From a virus: a stretch of DNA of 31,722 bases. Positions within the stretch are counted from its first letter, which is position 1, and each line of letters starts with the position of its first letter. The translations under genes were made by a program, and so were the position numbers. Under the pieces are notes generated by a model. It did no database searches. It was given only the letters and a program-made list of their open reading frames with translations, and was not told the origin of the DNA. Below, in pieces: positions 15,773-21,465 of the stretch. The DNA lies in IMG/VR virus record IMGVR_UViG_3300025889_000564, positions 1 through 31,722 of that record, one strand, 5' to 3'.

Positions 15773-17644
15773 TTAATCGAAGTTCACCGAGTAGGGAGCG
15801 CACACGGCCCACCATTTCCCGTCCGAACGGCCCCGGAAATGGAACGCTGTCACCGCGCCGCTTTTTGCTGGGATGTTGGTGTCGAAGTCGGTATTGAAGT
15901 CTGCGTCAAAGCTGATCGTGTACGGCCCAGCGCCCTGCGTGATGTAGACGTACAGCACATCGCCCGCGCTGGGAGTGTACGGGCTCGCGATGGTCGTATT
16001 GGCCGACAGCGTGATTTCAAGCGACGTACTTCCGCCGCCCGTTCCGACGCCAGAGACAGCGCCAGCCGCGCCAATCGTGGATGCGGTTCGGCCTCCGCCG
16101 GCAAACGACTTCCAGTAGTCGACTACGCCGATATACCGGGTCGCATCAATAGCTTTTACGCCGATCCGCAGCCACTGCCCGCCCACGTCGGTGATCGAGA
16201 CTTGGCGGATTAGGTACGTGCCGCTCGACACGTTGAAATAGCTATTCGCGATGGTCTGAAGCTGGCCCGGCCGCAATGAGTGCGCCGTCGCCTCTACCTG
16301 CTGATCCGTCTCATAGCTGATCTCGTTGACGATGCGCTTCCGTTCGGCGATGATTGCGTTGCCATCGGCCAGCGCCTGCGCCTGCCCAATTCCAGGCCGC
16401 TCAAAGACGCCCTGATAGATTCCACTGTTCCCTTCAGCTGTAGCTGTCGAGGAGATGTCAGCCGAATCGTCGGTGTAAATGACGTTCGCGCCGAACTTCC
16501 GGTACGTCACCACTAGCGTGTCTGAGGTCGTCAGCACGGCTTCATCCGGGTCCTGACGGATTGTAGCCGTGCCTTCCTCGTAGTAGTACGCGCGGTCTGA
16601 TTCGGCCAGCCAAACGGCGAATTCCTTCTTTTCGCCATTGACCGACACGGAAATCATCTGGCCGACCCGATAGGCCAGGGTCCAAGAGGTCGCGCTGCCA
16701 TTGCCGGTGAACGTCTCTTCCTCGTAGCCGATCTGGTCCCAGTCAACGCGCATCAGCGCCGCGTTGACTTTGTCCTCCCGAGTGCGGCGAACGGACAAAT
16801 TACGGTAATTGCCACCACTGCTCGACAAAGAAAACGGCGCAGTCGTGAAAGTGCGCGGCTGGAAGTACAGCTCCCGCTCTTCGTCGATCCACCATTGGAA
16901 ACCGGACACTTCCGCTAGTTGGCTGATCGCCTCCGCAACGCTCGTTTCCTCGTTCCAAAGGATCGTATCGACCACGGCCCCTTTGGCGACGTTTGTATCT
17001 CCCAGCGGCTCGGACGTGGCCGCGTCGACCAGCAGCGCCTTGACCACGTCGCCCGCGCGGTTCGCAACCAAGACCTGCTCAAGCGTCCCGGCGTCGATGA
17101 TGTTGACCGCAGCGCCGCCCGACGTGAGCGACAGCTTCAGCGTCGAGGTGCCAGCAGAGACAACGTAATACTCAATGGTCGAATCCAGCCCACCGCAGAG
17201 GGCCCCATTCGCGTGCGCTCGCACCTTCACCCGGTCGCCGTTGCTCAGCCCGTGACTGCCGACCGTCGTTAGGGTGTCGGTCGACGGATCGGCAGTCAAC
17301 AGAAAGTTCCGCGAGTACCGCAGCGGCCGCCCGTTCGCCACATCCCAGCAATAGCGGCGGTCCAAGTACTGCTCCCACGTCACCCCGCGCAGCGCATAAC
17401 GGCGAAACGTCGGCGCGGCCTCGGTGAGTGACATTTCATTCACTTCATCGACCGAGCCCGCCCACAGTTTCGACGCGCCCTCGAATAGTTCGATGTCCTG
17501 TCCGCACGTCGGGCGGAAGCTGGCGTTAGCCGACTGCACGACGACATCCAACGTCGCCCGGTTGCCGAGCGATGCAGATACGTTCAGCGTGCCGGGGACG
17601 GCTTCCACCGTGGTCCCGCCGATCTTGACGATAGGGTCAGGCAT
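15773..17644 (-). CDS. Tail hub/baseplate protein (Tal-like)
   Basis: A 623-residue protein. The N-terminus, IVKIGGTTVEAVPGTLNVSA to LFEGASKLWAGSVDEV, matches the opening beta domain of siphophage tail hub proteins that continue the tail tube and gate DNA exit. The middle region has a hub-like mixed alpha/beta composition (SGFQWWIDEERELYFQPRTF). The C-terminus (about 540-623) is a Gly/Ser-rich linker followed by a beta module (LVYVYITQ-like, FHFRGRSDGKWWAVCAPYSV) resembling fibre-tip domains. The start ATG 17644 overlaps the tape measure stop as TAATG. Position directly after the tape measure gene supports the call. No separate Dit gene is seen. Confidence 0.8.
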   Translation of the reverse strand: MPDPIVKIGGTTVEAVPGTLNVSASLGNRATLDVVVQSANASFRPTCGQDIELFEGASKLWAGSVDEVNEMSLTEAAPTFRRYALRGVTWEQYLDRRYCWDVANGRPLRYSRNFLLTADPSTDTLTTVGSHGLSNGDRVKVRAHANGALCGGLDSTIEYYVVSAGTSTLKLSLTSGGAAVNIIDAGTLEQVLVANRAGDVVKALLVDAATSEPLGDTNVAKGAVVDTILWNEETSVAEAISQLAEVSGFQWWIDEERELYFQPRTFTTAPFSLSSSGGNYRNLSVRRTREDKVNAALMRVDWDQIGYEEETFTGNGSATSWTLAYRVGQMISVSVNGEKKEFAVWLAESDRAYYYEEGTATIRQDPDEAVLTTSDTLVVTYRKFGANVIYTDDSADISSTATAEGNSGIYQGVFERPGIGQAQALADGNAIIAERKRIVNEISYETDQQVEATAHSLRPGQLQTIANSYFNVSSGTYLIRQVSITDVGGQWLRIGVKAIDATRYIGVVDYWKSFAGGGRTASTIGAAGAVSGVGTGGGSTSLEITLSANTTIASPYTPSAGDVLYVYITQGAGPYTISFDADFNTDFDTNIPAKSGAVTAFHFRGRSDGKWWAVCAPYSVNFD

Positions 17645-19962
17645 TAGCGAGGGATGACGCCGTACTGCTTCAGTAGGCGGGTGATCTCAGTCAGTGTTTG
17701 CTGCGGATTGCCGCCGTTGATGTTGATCGTTACCGTTGCGCCGCCGCCAGCCTCGGCTACGGCCATCTGCCGCGTCTCCATGCGGATGAGCGACTCCCAG
17801 ATGTTTTTGAGGTTCGGCAGGAACTCGTTGTTCTTTTCGAGCAAGTGCAGCAAGTGGATTTGCGAGTACCGCGTCTCCTTCTCGATCAAATCAAGCGTTT
17901 TGTTCATCCCCGCCATCTGGAAATTGCCGATGATCCCGGACACGGCAGACGCAATGCCTGTGACCATTCCGACAGCGGCAGATAGACCGGTAGACGCCGC
18001 AGCGCCAGCCGCTTGACCAGCGCCACCGCCCGCACTTCCAACGGCCCCAGCGATTCCGCCAGCAGCCGACGCGCCACCACCGCCAACGGCAGACATAACG
18101 GCACCCGTGCCGCCGCCGAAGACCTTGCCCATGATGCCGCCAACATCGAGCAGCTTCCCGGCCAGCTTGGCGAGCGCTTTTTCGACCAGTTCGCGAATGA
18201 TCGCCTCGCCCGCCGACTTCACCACGCCCTGAAGCATGGAGCCCCAACCCTTCCACTCGATAATCGAGCGAGCGATCCCGCGCGAGAGGTCAGTGAGCAC
18301 GGTAGACACTTGGCGCAACGCGGCAGACTGAGCCTTCGCAGACGACTGCGCCGCGCGCTTCATCGCCTCGTACTGCTCCTTGGTCTGCATCCCGAGATCG
18401 CCAATGTTTTCGCCCATCTTGCGGAATTCCTCGAAGCTACCGGGGAAAACTGGCATTTCCGGTTTCGGAACGTCTTTCATCCCGCCGCCGATGCCGGGGA
18501 TCTTCACGTCAGGCGGGTTTTCGAGAATGCGGAAGTAGCGGAACAGCGTGTCCGCAACTTGAATATTGAGCGCGATCTGCTCGCGCGTGATCCCGCCGTA
18601 CTTGATGCCCAACTCAGCCGCCTTGTCGATGGCTTTGTTGTAGTCATCCATGTACTCTTTGGCCATCTTCTGCGCGATGGCTCCGTCGAGAGTGGCGACC
18701 TTCAGTTCGATGTGCGCCTTGGCTTTGCGGGTAATCTTCTCGGCAGCGACAGCAGCCACTTCGCCCGTCTTGGCCGTCTCTTCATTCGACGGCTTTAATA
18801 CCTGCATGTAGCCCATGACGGCGTCGCGCGCCGCGCTAAAAGCCACTGGCGCGCCGGTTCCGACGCGTTCATTTAGGCGCTTGATCGCTTCCGCCGACGT
18901 GTCCACCGTGTTCTGCCGGTGGGTGTTCAGGATGTGCATGAACCCGCCAACAGCGGCGGCGGCAGCGGTCGCAGCGGTACCCGCAAGCGTGATCCCGCCC
19001 GCGAATCCTTTGAGAATCGGCAGCAGCTTATTCAGCGTCGCAATGACAATCGCGCCCTTTTCAAATAGCGTGCCAAGGGCAACTATCAGGATAGGCGCGG
19101 CGGCGGCAGCGACCGACAAGCCAGCAGCAAAATTCTGCGTTGCCGTCGGCAGCTTCTGGAACTCCTGCGCGAATGCCTTGGCTTTTTCAATACCTGGAGT
19201 CAGGAAGTCATCGAGGACGCGCTGCGCCATCGGCAACAACGTCTTACCGAACTCCGCAGCCGCATCCTTCGCGGCCATCTGAATGTTTTCCCAAGAATTC
19301 TTGTAGGTATTGCCCGCGCGCTCGCCCTTCGCCAATTCGTCCACGAGGATGCGGATGAACTGCTGCGACGAGATGCCCATCTTTTCAAACGTCTTCGCGG
19401 GGTCGCCCAGCGCCTGCGCGCCGAATTTTTCCTTGATGATGGCGGCGATCTGCGGGATGCGCTCAACGATTGGGTCGAGATTTTCCTTGGTGACCTTGCC
19501 GACCGCGCCCAACTGCGACAACTGCCGGATTACCTCGCTGAAGTCCTCGCGCCCGCCGCCGACAGCCGCGAGAGCGTTCCCGAGTTCGGCCATGATGCGG
19601 CGCGATTCGCTGGCCGAATTGCCGAGGATTTGCAGGCGCACGGAGCCCCGCACGGCTTCTTCCAGCCCCAGCCCCGGCAGCTTCGCCACCTCGCGCAACT
19701 TCGCCATCTCGGCGGTAGTCGCGTCGGTCGTCTTCATGACCGCTTTCAGGCCCATTTCGAGCGACTGCATATCGCTCGCGGCCTTGATCGCGGCCCCGCC
19801 AGCGGCGAGAATTGGCGCGGAGAATCCAATAGCCATCGCCTCGCCCGCAGCGGTTACGGACTGCGCGAACCGCTGCGCCTTGCCGAGCGCCGCGTTGACT
19901 TTTTTATCGTAGTCGTCAGTCGAGGCGCCGATGCGGACGATGAGGTTGGAGAGGATAGGCAT
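17644..19962 (-). CDS. Tail tape measure protein
   Basis: A 772-residue protein, the longest in the window. The N-terminus MPILSNLIVRIGASTDDYDK begins a long helical, Ala-rich tape measure region (AAIKAASDMQSLEMGLKAVM). Hydrophobic segments follow near 270-340, and a Gly/Ala-rich region (about 600-690) may be membrane-active. It ends in a folded domain (ATVTININGGNPQQTLTEIT). Tape measure length sets tail length; at about 1.5 angstrom per residue this implies a tail near 110-120 nm (inference). It starts 4 bp after the stop of the frameshifted chaperone product, the conserved order in siphophages. Confidence 0.93.
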   Translation of the reverse strand: MPILSNLIVRIGASTDDYDKKVNAALGKAQRFAQSVTAAGEAMAIGFSAPILAAGGAAIKAASDMQSLEMGLKAVMKTTDATTAEMAKLREVAKLPGLGLEEAVRGSVRLQILGNSASESRRIMAELGNALAAVGGGREDFSEVIRQLSQLGAVGKVTKENLDPIVERIPQIAAIIKEKFGAQALGDPAKTFEKMGISSQQFIRILVDELAKGERAGNTYKNSWENIQMAAKDAAAEFGKTLLPMAQRVLDDFLTPGIEKAKAFAQEFQKLPTATQNFAAGLSVAAAAAPILIVALGTLFEKGAIVIATLNKLLPILKGFAGGITLAGTAATAAAAAVGGFMHILNTHRQNTVDTSAEAIKRLNERVGTGAPVAFSAARDAVMGYMQVLKPSNEETAKTGEVAAVAAEKITRKAKAHIELKVATLDGAIAQKMAKEYMDDYNKAIDKAAELGIKYGGITREQIALNIQVADTLFRYFRILENPPDVKIPGIGGGMKDVPKPEMPVFPGSFEEFRKMGENIGDLGMQTKEQYEAMKRAAQSSAKAQSAALRQVSTVLTDLSRGIARSIIEWKGWGSMLQGVVKSAGEAIIRELVEKALAKLAGKLLDVGGIMGKVFGGGTGAVMSAVGGGGASAAGGIAGAVGSAGGGAGQAAGAAASTGLSAAVGMVTGIASAVSGIIGNFQMAGMNKTLDLIEKETRYSQIHLLHLLEKNNEFLPNLKNIWESLIRMETRQMAVAEAGGGATVTININGGNPQQTLTEITRLLKQYGVIPR

Positions 19963-19965
19963 GGA

Positions 19966-20136
19966 TCATCTACGCCGCGCGGACGCGGCTGCTTCGGCTT
20001 GCTGGCGCTCTTTCGCTGTCAGTTCCAGGTAGGACCACCATTCCGCGAATTCACGCGATGGCATGGCCTCGATTTCGCACACCTGGCAGTGCAGTTTTTC
20101 GGCGAGGGCGAAGACTAATCGCCGCTCGCCTCGGAG
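19966..20136 (-). CDS. Tail assembly chaperone, -1 frameshift extension (T part)
   Basis: This open frame has no good start of its own and is entered by -1 slippage at the heptamer 20136-20142. It adds 56 residues (LRGERRLVFALAEKLHCQVC and EAMPSREFAEWWSYLELTAK in the middle, ending SARRR) to the first 109 residues of the upstream chaperone, giving a 165-residue fusion. The Trp-containing EFAEWWSYLEL stretch resembles the conserved region of phage G-T type chaperone tails. The stop at 19966 lies 4 bp before the tape measure start. Equivalent to the lambda gpGT extension. Confidence 0.85.
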   Translation of the reverse strand, partial: LRGERRLVFALAEKLHCQVCEIEAMPSREFAEWWSYLELTAKERQQAEAAASARRR

Positions 20137-20142
20137 TTTTTT
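20101..20142 (-). promoter_or_regulatory. Programmed -1 ribosomal frameshift signal
   Basis: On the minus strand, codons GAA-AAA-AAC place the canonical slippery heptamer A-AAA-AAC at 20142-20136. After a 5-base spacer (TCCGA) comes a strong hairpin at 20130-20101: GGCGAG-C-GGCGA pairs with TCGCC-CTCGCC, 11 bp with one bulged C, around the loop TTAGTCT. The zero-frame TAG stop (20117-20115) sits in that loop. Heptamer, spacer and stem are all of the textbook form, and the -1 frame is open for 57 codons. Confidence 0.9.
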
Positions 20143-20462
20143 TCGATGTCCGCCTGCGCGTTAGCGGTCATGGCCGACAGGTCGAAAATGGCGTCGGTGA
20201 CAAACTGGACGCCTTTGCCGGGAAGCTTGGCTAGCGTGTCACGGTCGGCCTTCTCGAAAGCAGGTTTGCCCGTCTCAGGGTCGAAGGTGCTGTCGATCAT
20301 CAGTTCGATCAGCGCCTTGATACCGGACTTCTGGAAAGCAATCGAGAAGTTGAGCCGCTGCTCGACCGTCAGTTCGCGGATGCCGATTTTCTCGTCCCAT
20401 TCAGGAACGTCGATGATGTCCGTCCGCAGCTTCTGCGCGAGGACTTTTTCACGTAGACTCAT
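20115..20462 (-). CDS. Tail assembly chaperone (G part)
   Basis: A 115-residue helical protein between the tail tube and tape measure genes, where siphophages encode the G/GT chaperone that coats the tape measure during tail assembly. Its sequence (KIGIRELTVEQRLNFSIAFQ, DLSAMTANAQADIEKNSEAS) is of the usual acidic, helical type. Codon 109 (AAC) ends the slippery heptamer, so a minority of ribosomes should shift to make the longer form. The start is ATG 20462, preceded by TAGGAGAG. The 0-frame product alone is expected to be the major species. Confidence 0.85.
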   Translation of the reverse strand: MSLREKVLAQKLRTDIIDVPEWDEKIGIRELTVEQRLNFSIAFQKSGIKALIELMIDSTFDPETGKPAFEKADRDTLAKLPGKGVQFVTDAIFDLSAMTANAQADIEKNSEASGD

Positions 20463-20469
20463 ATCTCTC

Positions 20470-21075
20470 CTAGGTCACGAAATCGACAGGGCCGTCGGCG
20501 GCAAACTGCACGTTTTCCTTGACCGTTTCGTTTTCTCCGACCGTGATGCCCTGCGAGGTCACATGAGCCGCGCAGGCGTAGTAAGTTCCGCCCGGCTGGT
20601 CGATGTACAGCCGCACAACGTAGCGGTTGCCGATGTTGGTGCGGAAATAGCCGTCCTCGTAGAAACGCTGGAACGAAATCGTCGCGCTGCGGTTGATCGC
20701 CGTGCGCTCCTTCCACGAGTCCCCGAAGGTCTGCGTTTCTTCGAGGTCCGTCTGCACGTCCAGCGTCCACTCGTAGCCCTGCGCGGCCTGCGACAACGAC
20801 AGGTATTCACCCGTCACCGTCACCGTTCCGGCAGGCGTGTAGCCGTTGGTAAACGTGATTTTTCCGGTGCCCCAGGTCACCTGGTAGTTCTGCGCCGGAA
20901 CCGTCGCCACGCCGTCCAAAACGGTCAGCGCGGCGGTGGGATTGATCGCCCGTTTAGCGGAGTCCGTGATCTGGTAGACTCCGCTTCCGAGCGACGTGAC
21001 CGCTTCGCCGGTCATGGCCGTGCCGGTGCCGGTGGCGATGTAAATGTCTGCTGTACGCCCTGCAAGTACGGCCAT
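20470..21075 (-). CDS. Major tail tube protein, long paralogue
   Basis: A 201-residue beta-rich protein, ATG 21075 after AAGGGGGA. Residues 103-126 (WTLDVQTDLEETQTFGDSWK and on) are shared with the 126-residue gene just upstream, showing a duplication. This copy has about 80 extra residues at the N-terminus (YQVTWGTGKITFTNGYTPAG), an additional beta domain. It lies directly ahead of the chaperone gene, the standard place of the tail tube gene. Which paralogue forms the tube, or whether both do, cannot be told from sequence. Confidence 0.8.
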   Translation of the reverse strand: MAVLAGRTADIYIATGTGTAMTGEAVTSLGSGVYQITDSAKRAINPTAALTVLDGVATVPAQNYQVTWGTGKITFTNGYTPAGTVTVTGEYLSLSQAAQGYEWTLDVQTDLEETQTFGDSWKERTAINRSATISFQRFYEDGYFRTNIGNRYVVRLYIDQPGGTYYACAAHVTSQGITVGENETVKENVQFAADGPVDFVT

Positions 21076-21084
21076 GATTCCCCC

Positions 21085-21465
21085 TTAGGTGAGCGAGAGC
21101 GCGCCGGAGCCGGTGATGGTGTAGTTGACCGTCACGAGGCCGTTTTCGGCGGCGGCGATGCTGGCGTTAACGAACGCCGTGCCGCTGTAGTAGTTGGTTC
21201 CATCGACGTAAAACCGCGCCGATACGGTCGTTCCGCCGAGGAACGCGGTGCCGAGGGCAACGTGTCCGTTGGTGTCCGTGTCGTCGAGGCGACCGGAGGC
21301 GCTGCCACTCCACTCGCGGATCGTCGCCGTGCGCTCCTTCCAGGTGTCGCCGAAAGCCTGAGTTTCTTCGAGATTGGTGGAAACGTCGAGGGTCCAGTTG
21401 TCGATCTCCGCGACGGTATTTGAGCCGATCTTGAACGATCCGGCGTTGCCCACAAGAATAGCCAT
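21085..21465 (-). CDS. Tail tube protein, short paralogue
   Basis: A 126-residue beta-rich protein starting MAILVGNAGSFKIGSNTVAE. Residues 24-47 (WTLDVSTNLEETQAFGDTWK and on) align closely with residues 103-126 of the next gene, and the following beta strands also correspond (FYVDGTNYYSGTAFVNASIA). GGAGGAG precedes ATG 21465, with a short hairpin immediately ahead of it, as at the major capsid gene, suggesting strong expression. It could be the main tube protein, with the longer paralogue as a minor or terminal ring. Confidence 0.78.
   Translation of the reverse strand: MAILVGNAGSFKIGSNTVAEIDNWTLDVSTNLEETQAFGDTWKERTATIREWSGSASGRLDDTDTNGHVALGTAFLGGTTVSARFYVDGTNYYSGTAFVNASIAAAENGLVTVNYTITGSGALSLT

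Follow-up and report, generated by a model that had tools for sequence, protein, structure and literature searches.

The locus considered here raises the question of whether the tail assembly chaperone gene of a siphophage encodes, besides its own product, a longer fusion protein reached by programmed -1 ribosomal frameshifting, as had been claimed in a sequence-only reading of the DNA. The window, by which we mean the whole stretch of DNA analysed, is a viral record of 31,722 bases whose capsid, portal, terminase and tail genes are of HK97 type. Its chaperone gene, G, lies directly between tail-tube and tape-measure genes, in the order tail tube, G, T, tape measure. The features on which the argument depends are the following:

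20470-21075 and 21085-21465, minus strand: two tail-tube-like genes just upstream of G (PHROG 1407, 1.4e-5 and 8.6e-17)
20115..20462, minus strand: G, tail assembly chaperone, zero-frame product of 115 aa (ORF and translation, PHROG 344, 2ob9 profile and fold)
20136..20142, minus strand: slippery heptamer A_AAA_AAC in the zero frame (sole A6C on both strands; codons invariant in relatives)
20131..20135, minus strand: 5-nt spacer TCCGA (sequence between heptamer and hairpin)
20101..20130, minus strand: predicted stimulatory hairpin of 11 bp with one bulged C and a 7-nt loop (folding energy, invariant lower stem, matched arms)
20115..20117, minus strand: zero-frame TAG stop inside the hairpin loop (sequence; position varies among relatives)
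19966..20136, minus strand: -1 frame, T part of the GT fusion, 56 residues plus TGA (translation, relationship to lambda T, helical model)
17644..19962, minus strand: tape measure protein (PF20155 TMP_3 at 4.5e-18; start 3 nt past the T stop)

PHROG 1407 is common to both adjacent genes upstream of G, and in the Arthrobacter phages Kharcho, Kovu and Wheelbite the chaperone is likewise preceded by a pair of genes annotated as major tail protein.

The translated minus-strand ORF ends in ...DIEKNSEASGD*, and its product matches the PHROG 344 tail assembly chaperone family (8.4e-18). A profile of G and its relatives matched the HK97 chaperone 2ob9 at 2.8e-4, the identity between 2ob9 and the window G being about 20-23%, and the predicted structure of G (mean pLDDT 86) shares the 2ob9 fold (Foldseek E 5.9e-6; VIA-align Z 10.9 over 99 residues, rmsd 3.7). 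By sequence, PHROG 344 is the fitting family for G rather than Pfam PF06222 (Phage_TAC_1), against which it scores 18.8 bits, below the gathering cut-off of 25. Based on the profile match and the predicted fold, G is an HK97-type tail assembly chaperone, and its earlier identification as a tail chaperone stands.

Towards its 3' end G carries the heptamer A_AAA_AAC in the codon context ATC GAA AAA AAC TCC. This is the single in-frame A_AAA_AAC within the gene; A6C occurs once over both strands of the 31,722-base record, and in-frame heptamers of the form X_XXY_YYZ number just 8 in 6,032 codons of likely genes in the window. The spacer is followed by a hairpin with the sequence GGCGAG-[C]-GGCGA / TTAGTCT / TCGCC-CTCGCC (20130-20101), so that the slippery sequence, 5-base spacer, 11-bp single-bulge stem and stop codon in the loop described earlier are all present in that arrangement. 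The 40-nt hairpin stretch folds with -21.2 kcal/mol, against a shuffle mean of -11.3 (z -4.0; reached in 0 of 200 dinucleotide shuffles), and the 35 nt 3' of the heptamer rank among the best 0.15% of 35-nt coding segments by folding (beating 99.8%). Synonymous randomisation attains the observed hairpin energy in 4% of trials. The strength of the hairpin derives in part from the T peptide, because the segment GERR...FALAE is encoded by near-complementary codons. Taken alone, the window hairpin is thus only moderately unlikely by chance, and given the 4% of synonymous randomisations that match it, the comparative evidence is the stronger support.

A weak Shine-Dalgarno-like AGGCGG is also found about 6 nt 5' of the heptamer (20143-20166, minus strand). 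It was rejected as an upstream stimulator, being not significant in the window, where 19% of control segments are equally good; among relatives the corresponding match is strong in some (-9.5 to -13 kcal/mol; AGGAGG in L004) and there is none in others.

The -1 frame is open for 57 codons, as previously stated, comprising 56 sense codons and a TGA ending at position 19966. The predicted GT fusion is 165 aa long, with its junction at N109/L110, which agrees with the residues 109-110 named before. The T part alone is predicted to fold as a helical domain (pLDDT 91). Comparison of the extension with phage proteins, along the lines of a check that had been suggested, linked it to phage lambda: an alignment of T domains aligns directly to lambda T (hhalign P 6e-6, probability 85), and the T domains of relatives match PHROG 337, as does lambda T. 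The window's own T gives a weak match to PHROG 337 (0.017), and in BFVD its model returned weak Foldseek matches (E 0.02 or worse), including two named tail assembly chaperones. By these sequence comparisons the -1 frame product is a relative of lambda T.

Searching with G yielded 39 viral loci, one of which ends before the 3' end of the gene. In 38/38 of the relatives in which this end is present, G has an in-frame heptamer there together with a T-like -1 frame; 34 carry A_AAA_AAC and four G_GGA_AAC. Homologues lacking the slippery site and the T frame, which would have spoken against the proposal, accordingly numbered 0 of 38; a far more distant homologue, discussed below, encodes its T part in another frame. 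Searching by a DNA pattern for the element retrieved 33 viral contigs, some of them also in the first set, and in 33/33 it falls in the chaperone gene with the same layout. Compared pairwise, 30 representatives agree in 435/435 pairs at both slippery codons (AAA, AAC) and at the lower-stem codons (GGC GAG, CTC GCC), against a mean synonymous identity elsewhere of 0.61 in G and 0.62 in the remainder of T. These representatives are related and do not count as independent events. About half of them came in through the DNA pattern, in which the heptamer and the 5' arm are preset, and for those only the 3' arm is therefore independent evidence.

The upper stem occurs in two designs, either bulged, as in the window, or continuous. 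Matched upper-stem halves average -20.8 and -22.6 kcal/mol and swapped halves -18.4 and -13.9; since the swapped halves fold worse, both arms have changed together. In the distant loci L042-L046 the sequences are different, yet hairpins are again found at about the same place, and the arrangement as a whole is seen again in dozens of contigs whose protein identity goes down to about 30-45%. The presence of the site and its conservation among relatives are established observations.

The position of the zero-frame stop is not shared in the same way. Relatives mostly terminate right after the heptamer (AAC TAA or AAC TGA) or one codon on (AAC TCG TAG). Among close relatives, a stop six codons on and inside the loop is limited to the window and its two nearest neighbours (L002 and L003), while a later stop also appears in some distant members (L043-L045 and the contigs L082 and L083 described below). 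Comparison of these sequences indicates that the stop in the loop is a lineage trait and not a conserved working part. A functional role for it as a general feature was rejected on account of these earlier stops in relatives. The earlier description of every element as unusually clean was likewise overstated: the sites of relatives are equal or stronger, and the loop stop is peculiar to the close lineage.

A close-alignment profile scan of genome contigs recovered no relative, and a scan with a wider alignment returned two Gemmatimonadota MAG contigs. In both L082 (around 2018) and L083 (around 5986) a related chaperone gene comes with A_AAA_AAC as well as a T frame, and these contigs are possible prophages. 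As an indication of host range they are weak and do not suffice to name a host. The Microcystis phage Mae-JY09 (L084 1462-2014) has a distant chaperone homologue whose T part lies in the +1 (or -2) frame. A search of this homologue for an X_XXY_YYZ heptamer found none, TTT_C being a candidate for a +1 site. Within the chaperone family the shift may have changed direction.

We consider it almost certain that the window site is a programmed -1 ribosomal frameshift of the lambda G/GT type, in a siphophage with an HK97-type capsid, although the shift itself and its efficiency are matters that we infer. In the best-supported mechanism, tRNA-Lys and tRNA-Asn slip in tandem by -1 on A_AAA_AAC with the aid of the hairpin. 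An RNA structure suitably placed 3' of the slippery site is frequent, though not invariable, in phage G/GT frameshifts. The majority of ribosomes would terminate at the TAG and release the 115-aa G. A minority would be held up at the hairpin while tRNA-Lys occupies AAA and tRNA-Asn occupies AAC; both tRNAs would slip back one base onto AAA AAA, and reading would continue in the T frame and yield the 165-aa GT fusion. On the model of lambda, from which the functions of G and GT are taken (PMC5009743), G would coat the tape measure protein and GT would recruit the tail-tube protein, in which case the ratio of G to GT would matter for tail assembly. HK97-like chaperone genes placed in reporters gave 6-7% frameshifting (PMC3711429). 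In E. coli, A_AAA_AAC is a much weaker site than A_AAA_AAG (PMC5009743), and the efficiency in the natural host of the window phage may be different.

A fusion could also arise if RNA polymerase dropped one A or added two within the run of seven A in the window, the altered mRNA then being translated normally, and poly-A runs can slip in transcription as they can in translation (PMC3711429). Runs prone to this are usually of nine or more, however, and 8 A have been called non-slippery (PMC1088944). Seven in the window and six in many relatives (ACAAAAAAC, GGAAAAAAC) fall short of the homopolymer length of about nine or more, and we rejected the run as a transcriptional slippage site. The relatives with six A nevertheless retain A_AAA_AAC, four others carry G_GGA_AAC, and slippage by the polymerase has no need of a conserved hairpin, all of which makes this explanation very improbable.

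It is less probable still that T is made separately from a start codon of its own with no frameshift. Lambda T is annotated as its own ORF and some relatives carry a separate downstream ORF in their annotation, but the T frame of the window has no ATG, GTG or TTG ahead of the GERR..FALAE segment, the first candidates falling within the domain. Separate initiation was rejected on the ground that no start codon is available where the T domain begins, and the T frame moreover overlaps G and is conserved from the heptamer onward. The remaining explanation, that the seven-A run is a homopolymer sequencing error or the T frame an accident, draws on the error-prone nature of such runs and on the fact that the strength of the stem partly follows from the T peptide. 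It is refuted by the comparative data, as the arrangement recurs in dozens of contigs with A6, A7 and G_GGA_AAC variants, and we assign it a negligible probability.

Programmed -1 frameshifting at the lambda G/GT pair is well known (Levin 1993; Xu, Hendrix and Duda 2004, as summarised in the review PMC5009743). The window resembles lambda in its gene order, in that a -1 shift lengthens a small chaperone gene into a T frame immediately ahead of the tape measure, and in having a T part that is a recognisable relative of lambda T (hhalign; PHROG 337). It differs in that lambda G belongs to PHROGs 42 and 32165 and the window G to PHROG 344, and in the length of T, which is a 144-aa ORF in lambda and 56 residues here. 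A_AAA_AAC has been predicted in the tail chaperone genes of phiCbK (PMC3556154), vB_AbaS_Loki, where it is immediately adjacent to the stop (PMC5313236), and HCTV-2 (PMC5009743). We liken these three to the window by their heptamer and their place in the tail operon alone, and in contrast to Loki the window has its stop six codons on, inside the hairpin loop. The Arthrobacter phages Kharcho and Kovu have a G in PHROG 344 and a T homologous to that of the window, but their heptamer is G_GGA_AAA; Sinorhizobium phage phi3LM21 has A_AAA_AAC like the window but is annotated without a fusion. The chaperone pairs of Kharcho, Kovu and phi3LM21 share only about 30% identity with that of the window.

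The end of T also bears on how the tape measure is translated. The T stop and the tape measure start read TGA TCC ATG, with the ATG at 19962, so that the gap is 3 nt and not the 4 bp given earlier; in relatives of the GER family it ranges from -1 to +9 nt. No Shine-Dalgarno-like motif is found at the window's tape measure start (19962-19985, minus strand). A start that lacks this motif and lies 3 nt past the T stop led us to consider that the tape measure of the window phage might be translated mainly by the few frame-shifted ribosomes, in which case the frameshift would set both the GT level and the tape-measure level. We regard this as unlikely. Such coupling finds no support across relatives, many of which have the same layout and a fair Shine-Dalgarno match at this position.

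The tail-chaperone frameshift site described here is real and conserved among relatives, but ordinary, and of a kind already well known. Its main value is for annotation, since the beginning of T offers no usable start codon and T is omitted or split in several deposited relatives, as the sequence-only reading had anticipated of automated annotation. In GenBank a join is annotated in Kharcho, Kovu, Dubu and phiSASD1; T is given as a separate ORF in phi3LM21, Yara and Mae-JY09, is split in Edmundo and is lacking in Wheelbite. The natural variants of the element, comprising runs of six or seven A, stops at 0, 1 or 6 codons and two stem designs, could provide material for examining how frameshifting in phages is tuned by the position of the stop and the shape of the stem.
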